Shown piece by piece: positions 1,207-15,627 of a stretch of 64,000 bases of DNA. The position numbers and the translations under genes were made by a program. Origin of the DNA: Clostridia bacterium (GTDB taxonomy: Bacteria > Bacillota > Clostridia > Christensenellales > SZUA-584); contig QKIQ01000044.1 in the NCBI GenBank assembly GCA_003249555.1, positions 62,001-126,000 on the forward strand, given 5' to 3'. Position 1 is the first letter of the stretch. Every line of letters begins with the position of its first letter. The notes under the pieces are model-generated. The model did not search any database. It worked only from the letters and a program-made list of their open reading frames with translations, and was not told the DNA's origin.

Positions 1207-1641
1207 TCACATTGCGGCACTTTCTTCGTCAATAAACTGCTGAACGAGCTTTTTGATCTTGTTTCTTAACACTCTGACCTTTGTAAGCTTTTCTTCATCC
1301 GTACCCGTAAAATCTTCCGGATTCTCAAGATCCCAATGGAGCTTTTTCGCAACGCCCGGAAACGTAGGGCATTGCGTTTCTCTTGCGCGTTCGCAAACGG
1401 TCACAATATAGCCGAAAAAACGGCTTTGCTTTAGTAAGTCGTATACATCCTGCGTCTTTTTATCCGAAAGATCAATGCCCTCTTCTTTCATGGTTTTTAC
1501 AACCAAAGGGTTGATGACGGTGGGCTCAAAGCCCGCGCTTTCCGTTTCAAACTGATCTTCCCCGAGCAATTTCAGATAAGCTTCCGCCATCTGGCTCCTT
1601 GCCGAGTTGTGGACACATATGAATAAAACTTTTTTCTTCAT
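1207..1641 (-). CDS. arsC: Arsenate reductase ArsC, LMW-phosphatase fold (thioredoxin-coupled type)
   Basis: A 144-residue cytosolic reductase of the low-molecular-weight protein phosphatase fold. The P-loop CVHNSARSQMAEA gives the CX5R signature, with Cys10 the expected nucleophile. Two further cysteines in CERARETQC match the resolving pair of thioredoxin-coupled ArsC, although their spacing is CX7C and not the more usual CX6C. The ATG at 1641 is preceded by GAGGTGATC; an upstream in-frame start exists but has no ribosome site. No arsR, arsB or arsP lies next to it, so a detoxification role is inferred from the fold only; a phosphotyrosine phosphatase is the alternative. Confidence 0.85.
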   Translation of the reverse strand: MKKKVLFICVHNSARSQMAEAYLKLLGEDQFETESAGFEPTVINPLVVKTMKEEGIDLSDKKTQDVYDLLKQSRFFGYIVTVCERARETQCPTFPGVAKKLHWDLENPEDFTGTDEEKLTKVRVLRNKIKKLVQQFIDEESAAM

Positions 1642-1667
1642 GATGATCACCTCGCGATAAAAAATGC

Positions 1668-1697
1668 GTATCATTTGCTGGTTATGATACCATTATA
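1668..1697 (-). promoter_or_regulatory. arsC -10 box with perfect inverted-repeat operator
   Basis: GTATCAT-N9-ATGATAC (1668-1690) is a perfect 7+7 inverted repeat. It lies just downstream of a TATAAT (minus strand, 1697-1692) and upstream of the arsC start. A site at +1 is a typical repressor position. The regulator is unknown, since no ArsR homologue is nearby. Confidence 0.5.
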
Positions 1698-1789
1698 GAA
1701 CACTTCTTCATTGGCTTATGTTATTTTTGTGTTAAGCATATTGTGATCGATTGCAAATGCATATACGGCTTTTGTTTTCCCGTGCAATC

Positions 1790-1816
1790 AAAAAGCGCCC
1801 GCATATTGCAGACGCT
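1790..1816 (-). terminator. Rho-independent terminator after the PrsA-like gene
   Basis: On the minus strand AGCGTCTGCA-ATA-TGCGGGCGCT folds into a 10-bp stem with two G-U pairs and is followed directly by a U run. It sits 20 bases past the stop codon at 1835. Confidence 0.8.
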
Positions 1817-1834
1817 TGTTATCGTAAAAGTGTT

Positions 1835-3070
1835 TTAGTATCTTTCGGGATACATTTTGAGCGTGCCGTCTTCCTTGGCCGCATCCACCCAGCCTTGGGT
1901 GATATCGTACCACTCGTTTTGCTGTTTGCTGGACAGCATTTCGGAGGTCAATTCTTCTTTGACGTCTTCAAAGGGCACAACGCCTGCCAGAAGCTTCACG
2001 CACTGTATGAAGTAAACGCCGTTGTAGTTAACGACCGGTTCGCTGATCTGTCCCTCCGTTGCAAGTGTTGCCACGGCGTCAAGATAACCGGGGATGTCCA
2101 CTTGCTTGTAAGGCCCGGTGACGGTGCCTTCGGTTTTATTCGGCTCATAAGAATACGTATAATCTTCGTTGTATTCGTCCAAAAGCGCGGTGAAATCTTC
2201 ACCGGCAGCAAGGCGGGACTGGATGTCGTCGATCTTTGTCTGCAGGGCCGTCTGACCTTTTGTTATAAGGTCGTTATAGTTCGTCGTATCGTCTTCGCCG
2301 TAAGCGGCGGCTGCGGCGCTCTTGGTTTCGTCATCAAAGGCAAGGAAGATATGCCGCACGTTCATGTATCCTTCCGGATACACGAATATCCGTCCGCCGA
2401 AAGATGCTTGCATTTCGAAAAACGACGGGTCGTTCTCCATGTTGCCCTGCTGGATGCTGACGTTGCTGTCGTAGCTTTCCTTAACTTCTTCATCTGTGAC
2501 GGCGATGTCTTTGATGAAATAGTCGTATACTTTGTTGAAAATGAAATCCTTTTCCATCTGTGCGCGAAGCGTTTCGGCTGTGTAGCCGATTTCGTCATAG
2601 TAGTAGCTTAACGCTTTTTCGTATTCGTCATCGTAGCTGAGTGTATCATCCAAATCCACGGCAGACTGAGCCACATATTCCGCATAAGATTTGATGGAAT
2701 CTATGGTGCTGTTGAAATTCTCGTCAATTTCAGCGGTTTCGTCTTCGGTCAATTGATTAAGTCCCAGCTCCGCCGCTTTTTCATGCGCCATTTCATTGAC
2801 AGCCAATTCCTGTATAATGTTTTCCTTATATGTTTCCCAATAGCTTTCGTCCGATTCCACGTTTTCCAACGTCGCTCCCTGCTGTGAAAGGCTTTGGGTC
2901 ATATATTGCACGACCTGCCCTTTGGTGATGTCCGTATCCTTATATTCGGCGAGCACCTTGGCTTTATCAAGGGCATCGGCTTTTTCCTGATCGATGTCAA
3001 TAAGGCTGCAGCCGCCGGAAAAAGCGAGTAATGCGCATAGCACCAGCGCGAGAATTTTTCTTTTGTTCAT
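1835..3070 (-). CDS. Foldase lipoprotein with parvulin-type peptidyl-prolyl isomerase domain (PrsA/SurA-like)
   Basis: A 411-residue secreted lipoprotein. It has a basic N-terminus, a hydrophobic stretch and a lipobox ending in SGGC, so it should be anchored to the outer face of the membrane. A long acidic helical N-domain follows; the parvulin domain begins near residue 230 (VRHIFLAF) and reaches the end, ending in a SurA-like C-terminal helix. The expected role is folding of exported proteins after translocation. The ATG at 3070 has AAGGAGACTTCC upstream; a 44-residue upstream extension lacks a ribosome site. Monocistronic, with its own promoter and terminator. Confidence 0.85.
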   Translation of the reverse strand: MNKRKILALVLCALLAFSGGCSLIDIDQEKADALDKAKVLAEYKDTDITKGQVVQYMTQSLSQQGATLENVESDESYWETYKENIIQELAVNEMAHEKAAELGLNQLTEDETAEIDENFNSTIDSIKSYAEYVAQSAVDLDDTLSYDDEYEKALSYYYDEIGYTAETLRAQMEKDFIFNKVYDYFIKDIAVTDEEVKESYDSNVSIQQGNMENDPSFFEMQASFGGRIFVYPEGYMNVRHIFLAFDDETKSAAAAAYGEDDTTNYNDLITKGQTALQTKIDDIQSRLAAGEDFTALLDEYNEDYTYSYEPNKTEGTVTGPYKQVDIPGYLDAVATLATEGQISEPVVNYNGVYFIQCVKLLAGVVPFEDVKEELTSEMLSSKQQNEWYDITQGWVDAAKEDGTLKMYPERY

Positions 3071-13158: not shown

Positions 13159-13193
13159 AGCAGAAGCAGGTATCGCCCTGGTTCTGCTTTTTT
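13159..13193 (+). terminator. Rho-independent terminator after thioredoxin
   Basis: AGCAGAA/TTCTGCT outer stem (13159-13165, 13182-13188) with an inner GCAGG/CCTG pairing and six T residues. It touches the stop codon of the convergent radical SAM gene. Confidence 0.85.
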
Positions 13194-14268
13194 ATCGATC
13201 GTCTCTCTGCAAAGACATCACCCATTCGGCGTTTTCCTTGAGCGCGCAGCCGCCCCGGCTTTCTTTGAGCTGGTCATGGTTCTTGCGCACCTCTTTGATG
13301 AGCTTTGATCTCAGCGCTTCTTTGAGCGGCATGTTTTTGACGCTTGTGTCCGAATAGGGCGCAAACGGACAGGCCTCCAGAGCGCCGCTTGAGCTGATAT
13401 GCAAAAAACCGCGACCAGAGGCGAGACAGCCGCTGTACGGGTCTTCGTTGCCCGGTAAAGATACGACGAGCATGTCGTGGTCTTTATACAAGTTCTTTTC
13501 GACGGCACGCAGATGCGCCTTTTGCTCGTCTGTTAGGCACAACGACAGATCTTGTGCGCCGCAGGGTACATATTCGATCAGAAACGCCGCGCGGCATCCT
13601 AAATCCTGCATCGTTTTCAGGTAATCCGAGCGCACAACGTCATCGTAATTGACGCTGGTCAGTGTGACGGAAACGCCAAAAAGCCAGCCGTTTTTATCGA
13701 GACGGCACATTGTATCCGTTACAGCTTCGTAAATGCCGACACCGCGCCGTGCATCCGTCAGGATTTCGCCGCCCTCAAGACTCATAATAGGAATTAAATT
13801 TTTGAGTTTACCCACTTCGGCGGCTGTCTCATTGTGAAGCAGCAATCCGTTGGTAAACATCACGAACAGCAGCTCCGGATGTGCTTGGGGGAGCTTTAAA
13901 ATGCCGGGTTTTAATAACGGCTCGCCCCCTGCGATCATCACGATGGATACGCCAAGTGCTTTGGCTTCATCCACGACGCGTTCAATCTGAGCGGTGTTCA
14001 TTTCGGCGCTTTTGTCGCGGTCTTGATGGCAGGCATAGCAGCCTGTGCAGGCAAGATTACATTCGTTTGTTACACTGATAATCAAAACGGGCGGAACAAC
14101 AAGGTTTTCCTTATGGGCCAGTGTCGCACGCATCTTGTTGGCTTTCTTGATGTGTGCGGCGATACGGGCAAAGGCGGGAATATAAGCAGGCCGTTTAAGC
14201 AAAAACCTTTTGTTTTTCGCCACGGCTTCTGTTAATGTATCATTGAAAAGATTGATGCCATCGTTCAT
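13192..14268 (-). CDS. Radical SAM protein with SPASM-like C-terminus
   Basis: A 358-residue [4Fe-4S]/S-adenosylmethionine enzyme. The cluster motif is CNLACTGC (CX3CX2C) near residue 83, followed by IAGGEPLL, a GGEP SAM-binding motif. Cysteines in the C-terminal part (GCLASGRG, EACPF, GGCAL) may hold an auxiliary cluster. ATG 14268 has GGAGG upstream; a 20-residue upstream extension has none. It stands alone, so the substrate cannot be read from neighbours. It resembles MoaA/heme-type or peptide-modifying SPASM enzymes, but no precursor peptide was found close by. Confidence 0.82.
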   Translation of the reverse strand: MNDGINLFNDTLTEAVAKNKRFLLKRPAYIPAFARIAAHIKKANKMRATLAHKENLVVPPVLIISVTNECNLACTGCYACHQDRDKSAEMNTAQIERVVDEAKALGVSIVMIAGGEPLLKPGILKLPQAHPELLFVMFTNGLLLHNETAAEVGKLKNLIPIMSLEGGEILTDARRGVGIYEAVTDTMCRLDKNGWLFGVSVTLTSVNYDDVVRSDYLKTMQDLGCRAAFLIEYVPCGAQDLSLCLTDEQKAHLRAVEKNLYKDHDMLVVSLPGNEDPYSGCLASGRGFLHISSSGALEACPFAPYSDTSVKNMPLKEALRSKLIKEVRKNHDQLKESRGGCALKENAEWVMSLQRDDR

Positions 14269-14422
14269 AAAATATCCTCCGGGATATGATGATTCATTAT
14301 ATATCATATGTATGCATATTTCGACCAATAGAAAGAACTTAACAATATTTTTTCAAACAATATGCAATAAAACGGATTTTTGTTTGTCTTAAGGATAGAA
14401 CCGTCCAAAAGGAGTTGAAGAT

Positions 14423-14683
14423 ATGACGGCCTCGGGGCAGATGTATTTAAAAGCTGTATACTATTTATCGAGACAACACCAAGCCACATATGTGGCGGAC
14501 ATTGCGCAGGCGCTTGAAGTGACGCGTCCAAGCGCGAGCAATGCGCTTAAAAGTCTGGCAAAAAAGGGCTACGTGCTTCACCAGCCGTATGGAGACGTGA
14601 GGCTGACGAAGCAGGGAGAGCATGCGGCTCAAAAGATCATCCATCTTGATGAACGCATACGCCAGTATTGTTTCTGTGAGTGA
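14423..14683 (+). CDS. Short DtxR/MntR-like winged-helix protein lacking metal and dimerization regions
   Basis: An 86-residue DNA-binding protein. Residues 5-65 align with the MntR/DtxR N-terminal domain (DIAQALEVTRPSASNALKSL, then KGYVLH and VRLTKQG). The protein stops where the metal-binding and dimerization helices should begin. The residues equal to MntR Asp8 and Glu11 are Met and Lys here, so metal sensing is unlikely. There is no frameshift continuation in the next frames. The gene has AAAGGAG and is followed after 26 bases by an ECF-like sigma gene, which suggests a co-regulated unit. Confidence 0.72.
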   Translation: MTASGQMYLKAVYYLSRQHQATYVADIAQALEVTRPSASNALKSLAKKGYVLHQPYGDVRLTKQGEHAAQKIIHLDERIRQYCFCE

Positions 14684-14709
14684 GTAGATTGCGAAAGGAG
14701 AAGAAGCGG

Positions 14710-15204
14710 ATGAGCAGCACGCTCGCAGAAATCTTTGCGGGAAGCTTTAACAAATTTAAAAACTATGTTCGCAAATCGTTTTCTTCGCTGAATGAATACG
14801 ATGCGGAAGACATCGTGCAGCAAACGGCAATGAAGCTGTTGGGGAACGTTGAATCGGACACCATAGCCAGCTTGACGTCGTATATCTATGCGGCACTGAG
14901 AAACAGCGCAATGAACATGGTAAAGAAGCAGCGCAGAGAGCGGCTCTCGGATAAAATGGAGGGCAAAGAGTGTGAAGGCTCCGCGGAAGACGAGGCTGTT
15001 CGCGAAGAACTCAAACGGCATATGGAAGCGGCGCTGGCAATGCTTGATGAAAAATCCTGCTTCGTGTTTGTGGAGACTGAGATTAACGGAAAGAGCTATA
15101 AGGCGCTTTCCGAGCAGACGGGTGAGCCTATCGGTACGCTGCTGTCGCGAAAAAGCCGGGCAATGAAGAAACTCAATATTATTTTGGATGAATATGAGAA
15201 TTAA
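14710..15204 (+). CDS. ECF-like RNA polymerase sigma factor
   Basis: A 164-residue sigma-70-family protein with only regions 2 and 4. Region 2 includes EDIVQQTAMKLL (about residue 33). Region 4 is the helix-turn-helix SYKALSEQTGEPIGTLLSRK near the C-terminus. ATG 14710 is preceded by AAAGGAG. It is followed after 12 bases by a small membrane protein that may be its regulator. The unit has no classical zinc-binding (ZAS) anti-sigma factor. Confidence 0.8.
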   Translation: MSSTLAEIFAGSFNKFKNYVRKSFSSLNEYDAEDIVQQTAMKLLGNVESDTIASLTSYIYAALRNSAMNMVKKQRRERLSDKMEGKECEGSAEDEAVREELKRHMEAALAMLDEKSCFVFVETEINGKSYKALSEQTGEPIGTLLSRKSRAMKKLNIILDEYEN

Positions 15205-15216
15205 CAGGAGGAAGAT

Positions 15217-15627
15217 ATGGAAAATAACAATAAACACACGTATGGATTTATTCGCGTGTTGGGCGGTATCATCATCGGAACGTTTGTGGCGGCGTTATTC
15301 GCCCTTGTGATTGGTGTGCTCATCATGGCGCTGTGGAACTGGCTGATGCCGGAGCTTTTCGGACTTGGCGTAATTACCTACTGGCAGGGCTTTGGTATCG
15401 CGCTGCTTGCACGGCTGCTTTTCGGTGGCATGGGGCATAAAGATCATTACGAAAAAAAGGACTATATGCATCCGCCAAAGCATAAGTTTGTAAAGCATAT
15501 GCATCGCGACGCGATGAAAAACCGGCGGTTCGATGATGTGTATGAGAAATGGTGGGAGGATGAAGGTGCAGAGCGTTTCGAGAAATACATGAAAAAAGAA
15601 GCTGAGAAAGAGCAGGAAGACAAATAA
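15217..15627 (+). CDS. His-rich membrane protein encoded with the sigma factor
   Basis: A 136-residue protein with two predicted transmembrane helices (about 12-38 and 48-66). A highly charged cytosolic tail follows and carries a histidine cluster (GHKDHYEKKDYMHPPKHKF). AGGAGGAAGAT precedes ATG 15217. Its position right after the sigma gene and its His-rich loop suggest a membrane-bound controller of the sigma factor, perhaps metal-responsive; this is inference. I do not recognise a named family. A terminator follows. Confidence 0.65.
   Translation: MENNNKHTYGFIRVLGGIIIGTFVAALFALVIGVLIMALWNWLMPELFGLGVITYWQGFGIALLARLLFGGMGHKDHYEKKDYMHPPKHKFVKHMHRDAMKNRRFDDVYEKWWEDEGAERFEKYMKKEAEKEQEDK

Follow-up and report, generated by a model that had tools for sequence, protein, structure and literature searches.

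What controls an ECF sigma factor that is encoded between a shortened DtxR-like protein and a small membrane protein, with no standard anti-sigma factor at its side? The question is posed by a three-gene locus in a 64-kb stretch of DNA (hereafter the window), which a preliminary description had read as a possible sigma control unit with the membrane protein as its sensor. Many ECF sigma factors have no recognisable adjacent regulator, and the parts of PMC8103513 drawn on here describe both 102 unstudied ECF groups and ECFs that lack an obvious anti-sigma factor. We consider it fairly probable that the sigma factor of this locus is autoregulated and is controlled by a membrane hairpin, most likely in the manner of an anti-sigma factor, and that in some lineages it also reads envelope and efflux genes.

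The locus and its shortened DtxR-like protein

The three genes are as described before and lie on the plus strand (Table 1), and a plausible ribosome-binding site precedes each ORF. Translation of the sigma factor probably starts at ATG 14710, which is favoured over the alternative GTG by the aligned relatives and by an AAAGGAG ahead of the ATG. The protein has the expected two-domain build, regions 2 and 4 only, with hits to Sigma70_r2 (3.5e-07), Sigma70_r4_2 (1.7e-05, slightly below its cut-off) and the sigma70-ECF model TIGR02937 (7.2e-18; 64.8 bits against a cut-off of 42.9). Pfam and NCBIfam scans of the three proteins, of the products of the two flanking genes and of one further protein returned no standard anti-sigma factor, again as described. 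A radical SAM gene (13192-14328, minus strand) lies divergent to the operon.

Table 1 Features of the locus, in window coordinates
Feature	Position	Strand	Description and basis
Mini-DtxR gene	14423-14683	+	86 aa; ORF and PF01325 match
ECF sigma factor gene	14710-15204 (GTG 14680 as alternative start)	+	164 aa (174 aa from GTG); regions 2 and 4
Membrane hairpin protein gene	15217-15627	+	136 aa; ORF and relatives
Two-helix hairpin, residues ~13-70, WNWLMP motif at 40-45	15253-15426	+	Model helices, conserved core
Basic His-rich linker, residues 71-104	15427-15528	+	Model pLDDT ~50; His count
Class B tail helix FDDVYEKWWEDEGAERFEKYMKK, residues 105-127	15529-15597	+	Conserved protein end; helix pLDDT 74-93 in model
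ECF-type promoter: -35 TGCAATA 14363-14369, 15-base spacer, -10 TGTCTT 14385-14390	14363-14390	+	32 bases 5' of the mini-DtxR start codon

The first gene product, here called mini-DtxR, matches PF01325 (Fe_dep_repress; 2.4e-13, 50.5 bits against a cut-off of 26) and has the N-terminal winged-helix domain in common with the DtxR/MntR metalloregulators, but differs from them in its ligand positions and in its length. In phmmer alignments with MntR chains, Met7 and Lys10 fall at MntR positions 8 and 11, those of Asp8 and Glu11; the same two residues stand in chains 1on2 (Met at 8) and 4hx4 (Lys at 11), which we take to be the engineered MntR mutants D8M and E11K. The match reaches MntR residue 83 of 142, roughly the end of the DNA-binding domain, and the protein stops at residue 86. 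Both the MntR ligands and the dimerisation/metal-binding domain are therefore missing, as the preliminary description had held. Because the orthologues in two related genomes (G002 and G004) also carry Met7 and Lys10, these residues are not a chance mutation, and the coding sequence has been kept: it differs from that of G004 at 73 sites, of which 45 are third codon positions. The window's genome encodes two more short DtxR-like proteins (~128 and 132 aa; L028 1480-1866 and L029 1483-1881), and these carry the C-terminal part that mini-DtxR lacks.

A survey of all ORFs in loci L005-L192, with at least 400 bases upstream covered for 133 of 135 pairs, placed a DtxR-like ORF beside the sigma and membrane-protein genes only in the window's genome (G000), G002 and G004; none was found beside the pair in the other pair-holding loci, G001 included. 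In G004 the operon is split over contigs C40 and C187, whose halves we infer to belong together. Within the window's family, four of the five genomes contain the sigma gene, G001 holding the pair without a DtxR-like gene, and the search of family genomes gave no sigma match in G003. The proposal of a three-gene control unit, to be given up if the genes rarely occur together, thus divides: as a general unit the triad was rejected, since outside the window's own family no DtxR-like gene adjoins the pair in the loci examined, whereas the sigma/membrane pair stands, with the wide distribution and shared promoter set out below.

From its sequence, mini-DtxR appears to be a local addition to the operon, a winged-helix protein that would be incapable of MntR-type metal sensing. 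We regard it as very improbable that mini-DtxR is the main switch in the window's lineage, repressing the operon promoter with the membrane protein in a secondary role. Its maintained coding sequence would suit such a switch, as would its position directly after the promoter in three genomes, but the pair occurs elsewhere without it, in G001 among others, and a conserved operator was considered and rejected, since the three upstream regions, judged by eye, share only the promoter boxes.

Pairing of the sigma factor with a tailed membrane hairpin

At E<=1 the membrane protein had no match in Pfam or NCBIfam, and 19 members of its family gave only weak, unrelated matches to these databases (best 0.0006). 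Eleven positions are invariant among the 19 (M37, L39, W40, N41, W42, L43, M44, P45, F48, G60 and L68) and together outline a hairpin whose outer loop is short and whose two ends are probably cytoplasmic, judging from the positive charges. In the window's protein, which contains no Cys, ~12 residues precede the first membrane helix. The hairpin is followed by a basic Gly/His-rich linker and then by a helix of one of two classes, class A with the motif M(T/S)PEEREKFRxxM or class B with (Y/F)WxxEGxxxFxxY, the window's protein belonging to class B. We propose this tail helix as the candidate contact to sigma.

The first search for relatives of the membrane protein returned 17 matches, on contigs titled Spirochaetota, Acidobacteriota, Bacteroidota, Pseudomonadota, Bacillota and, once, 'bacterium', and in all 17 a sigma-like ORF precedes the hairpin gene in the same orientation (those of L012 and L013 are weak by phmmer and below 1e-10 by profile, and L005 begins inside the sigma gene). 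When profile A1 was run on genomes drawn from five phyla, matches were found in 27 of 398 genomes of the window's phylum, and in 43 of 296, 35 of 247, 32 of 198 and 14 of 398 genomes of the phyla of L011, L007, L006 and L019, respectively; a sigma gene lies at most 400 bases upstream in 116 of the 153 loci with a match. Removal of 11 duplicates left 142 loci, 118 of them tail-bearing (at least 25 residues after the hairpin) and 24 tailless. Across the five phyla, 117 of the 118 tail-bearing hairpins adjoin an ECF sigma gene (116 plus L165, and including L020, L074, L124, L132, L133, L156, L158, L160 and L162-L164 from locus-wise inspection), against one of the 24 tailless hairpins (L014), leaving 23 without. 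The association of tail and sigma factor is evident in the sequences themselves, as are the gene order, the pairing and the promoter. Among further loci with weak matches, unsorted by tail, 19 of 22 have an ECF sigma gene, the others being L181, L184 and L186. These three (L184 masked in part) and L059, the sole unpaired locus among the 118, bear tails with neither an adjacent sigma gene nor the promoter; in L059 a short HTH-type gene, by our reading, precedes the hairpin gene instead. In L052, scored as unpaired, a sigma gene is followed, by our reading, by a gene for a zinc-type anti-sigma factor.

The gene order is not fixed. Sigma and hairpin genes are swapped in nine loci (L074, L156, L158, L160, L162-L165 and L168) and also in an annotated Pantoea plasmid, in whose record the hairpin protein is a 'hypothetical protein'; a search of E. 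coli genomes for the swapped-order pair gave no match. In three loci (L020, L132 and L133) another gene intervenes, a ZIP gene in the case of L020, where a second copy of the promoter precedes the hairpin gene thus set apart. The swapped orders, the interrupted pairs and this second promoter point to selection for the pairing rather than to mere inherited gene order.

Several other arrangements were recorded. Some Spirochaetota loci have a methyltransferase gene, either within the operon (L132, L133) or downstream of a sigma-promoter copy (L131, L139, L140). L182 (G821; 1501-2681, minus strand) has one sigma gene between two hairpin genes, the first of which lacks the tail motif. The tailless hairpins of L036-L058 and L166 (Bacillota; ~65-100 aa, without sigma) read WLWNITMPxVFNLKxITFWQAFRLLLIAGILFGG, and several sit between genes resembling ligA and gatC. 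In L057 (930-2907) and L059 (912-2976) the hairpin gene lies, by our reading, between ArsR-like HTH and aldo/keto-reductase-like genes, an arrangement in which a hairpin is paired with another kind of regulator.

The class of the tail follows the sigma factor to which it is paired. In a sigma tree of 132 rows, whose bootstrap is not fully settled, the 36 partners of class-B tails and one other sequence form a single clade of 37 (98/96) with members in Bacillota, Spirochaetota, Bacteroidota, Acidobacteriota and Pseudomonadota, and the remainder comprises 80 class-A and 15 other rows. Tail class thus tracks the sigma tree across phyla, although such agreement alone is no proof of contact, since a linked gene pair has a common history. 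Covariation between sigma and hairpin is dominated by the class split: the mean of the top 50 is 0.237 against at most 0.227 in 30 within-class shuffles, and the maximum is 0.384 against 0.424 in such shuffles. AlphaFold models of two sigma-hairpin read-through fusions (pTM 0.42 and 0.47) give no confident overall arrangement; the tail helices have good local confidence, in the class A model as two short helices, and their placement on sigma is without confidence.

The histidine cluster noted earlier in the membrane-protein tail is present, with 6 His in 67 residues. That it is the key feature and that the locus is a metal-responsive unit, in which a His-rich tail binds metal and so controls sigma, we consider improbable. 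His makes up 10-11% of the linkers, at least three His occur in 32 of 37 class-B, 43 of 81 class-A and 9 of 18 other tails, and a ZIP gene lies within the L020 operon, all of which would agree with metal binding. Against this, 21 of 81 class-A, 3 of 37 class-B and 4 of 18 other tails have at most one His, the tail of the sister genome G001 having a single one; Lys, Arg and Gly are as abundant as His in the linkers or more so; the MntR ligands have been lost from mini-DtxR; and the targets observed (see below) are not mainly metal genes. The His cluster is thus common, yet not fixed.

A shared promoter and candidate targets

Pair operons are preceded by an ECF-type promoter with the consensus T(A/G)(C/A)A(A/G)TA-N15-CGTCT, including a CGTC-like -10 box. 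In a count that assumed no prior motif, AATA-N15-CGTC was found in 70 of 134 upstream regions, and no 4-mer pair exceeded 11 in three mononucleotide shuffles. A matrix was fitted to 126 of 138 regions (the G002 site was entered twice), 103 of the 126 having the 15-base spacer; 118 of the 138 regions score at least 12, against 2.2% of 414 shuffled regions, and 125 score at least 9, against 8.2%. As the matrix was fitted and tested on the same regions, an outside control matters: among 25 sigma-less hairpin loci, none scores at least 12 and two score at least 9, in a set where L050 has only 28 bases upstream and L041 and L044 are near-copies. Scores of 0.7, -2.6 and 4.4 were obtained for the tail-bearing orphans L181, L184 and L186, and scores of 11.7, 5.3 and 6.7 for three further ECF-like genes in the genome of the window; 8 of 33 Spirochaetota regions fall below 9. 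The site at 14363-14390 has the highest score in the window (17.0) and is its only 0-mismatch match to TGCAATAN15YGTCTW; shuffled versions of the window had 1, 0 and 0 sites at 15 or above per 64 kb. The same promoter boxes occur in G002 and G004. The sigma factor itself very likely reads the promoter ahead of its own operon.

The -35 box departs from that of better-known relatives. SigW, one of the closest sigma factors of known structure (3.2e-22), is reported to contact a purine of the -35 box through K170, and the consensus promoters of SigW and SigE are given in the same source (PMC6713349, part consulted; section 15 for K170). The counterpart of K170 is the third letter of TLL(S/A)R; of 125 sigma factors, one has Lys at this position and 119 have L, I, M or V. 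The AAC core typical of ECF -35 boxes is absent from the consensus found here, A(A/G)TA, which has T instead of C. SigH, which has Met at the K170 position in the alignment, reads GGAAT; the A(A/G)TA box is therefore a variant and does not exclude these proteins from the ECF group.

Beyond the operon itself, the strict promoter pattern matched 12 times in the five family genomes, against 4 in the control. The window's genome has a single match besides the one at the operon, and this lies within a gene; a wider regulon there was rejected. G001 has four matches, all with CGTCTTATTA: one lies ahead of the sigma operon, another ahead of a flavodoxin gene, and the other two ahead of a broken flavodoxin-like frame and of a TetR/ABC pair. 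G004 (L024/L197) has two divergent sites, one of which faces a homologue of the radical SAM gene; despite this, such a promoter was rejected for the window's own radical SAM gene, where the best score is 1.7.

In 12 Bacteroidota genomes, TAAAGTA-N15-CGTCTW gave 20 matches against 8 for the reversed control. They include seven sigma operons, two genes for outer-membrane efflux proteins (OEP; one Pfam-confirmed) and an MsbA-like ABC gene; the remainder precede genes for small membrane proteins, in one case with Hsp20 next in line, or, in four cases, other genes or none. The flanks of the collected loci contain 16 sites at 15.5 or above in 512 kb, and sites of this strength precede the L020 hairpin gene, the methyltransferase genes of L131, L139 and L140, and small-membrane-protein/Hsp20 genes of Bacteroidota. 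In six swapped-order genomes, 6 of 7 matches are the operon promoter. In 16 other genomes, GCAATA-N15-CGTCTA gave 11 matches against 12 for the reversed control, so that lone matches away from the operon prove little. In two Bacteroidota genomes (L237, L238), a small soluble protein of 74-77 aa beginning MIS(V/I)FKTN(V/I)QS lies behind a sigma promoter.

These promoters also bear on a different role for the hairpin protein, as a dedicated target or positive partner of sigma, either a membrane protector or sensor produced when required or a recruiter without which sigma would be inactive. We hold this to be rather unlikely. In its favour, the hairpin gene is always co-transcribed with sigma or placed behind the same kind of promoter, the protein resembles no known anti-sigma domain, and in Bacteroidota the same promoter precedes other small membrane proteins. 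A mere target, however, would not need to stay adjacent to sigma through order swaps and across five phyla, nor should its linkage to sigma be confined to tail-bearing hairpins.

A proposed mechanism and its relation to known systems

An anti-sigma-like pair is suggested by the likelihood that sigma feeds its own operon and by the presence of the tail with sigma and its usual absence without. The genes for mini-DtxR, sigma and hairpin would form one operon transcribed from its own ECF-type promoter, with sigma and hairpin as the core. The tail would bind sigma, and control by the hairpin would be negative; a membrane disturbance, as the signal felt by the hairpin, would loosen the tail, and the freed sigma would transcribe its own operon, joined in some lineages by genes for efflux, ABC exporters, small membrane proteins and Hsp20. 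The hairpin may have the role of sensor that the preliminary description had given to the membrane protein, and mini-DtxR would probably trim transcription of the operon.

More broadly, these proteins may represent a new class of membrane-bound sigma regulator, an idea we take seriously while stopping short of calling it probable. In such a class, a hairpin with a C-terminal cytoplasmic helix, of two classes tracking the sigma clade, would hold its cognate ECF sigma factor; it would span at least five phyla with a shared promoter code, be related to a wider family of tailless, sigma-less hairpins and serve envelope and efflux functions. One sigma clade in five phyla is now linked to a family that no Pfam or NCBIfam model covers. 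With the promoter code and candidate targets, the way in which these sigma factors are controlled can be tested directly, and the relatives with neither tail nor sigma offer a natural control for the function of the tail. The motif MALWNWLMP was not found in the literature searched, and among titles and abstract openings nothing was recognised as the hairpin family, although the 2021 ECF re-classification (Nucleic Acids Res 2021) may already list the hairpin neighbour.

On the sigma side, SigZ is among the top-scoring curated families, with scores far below the cut-offs (TIGR02959, 45.9 against 168.65; NF007215, 50.1 against 212), and the GFO_1088/PG0214 model NF058625 likewise stays below its own (41.3 against 130). 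The SigZ -35 box is reported to carry C at -34 (PMC6713349, section 15, part consulted), and TGCAATA of the window resembles it, with C at -34, when aligned by us to TGAAAC. The PG0214/PG0215 sigma system is treated in the consulted part of PMC10101095, and in that of PMC9723704 a CGT-box ECF motif precedes T9SS genes and one sigma/anti-sigma pair.

On the regulator side, the class I systems SigW-RsiW and RpoE-RseA likewise place an ECF sigma gene beside the gene for a small membrane protein, with an ECF-type promoter ahead of the operon. Unlike class I anti-sigma factors, the window's hairpin protein has no class I domain (often with Hx3Cx2C) and only a short stretch before its first membrane helix, and the soluble part that is conserved stands at its C-terminus, behind both membrane helices. 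Class II anti-sigma domains embrace the outside of sigma (PMC8103513, part consulted). A sequence search of the PDB gave no match of the hairpin protein to solved CnrY or NepR. The predicted tail helix, as a short helical candidate contact to sigma, may recall these class II proteins, and it differs from them in standing C-terminal, behind a two-helix hairpin. LytTR regulatory systems also pair a transcription regulator with a small membrane protein; on the part of the account drawn on here, they would be alike in manner of working only, the regulator at the window locus being a sigma factor.
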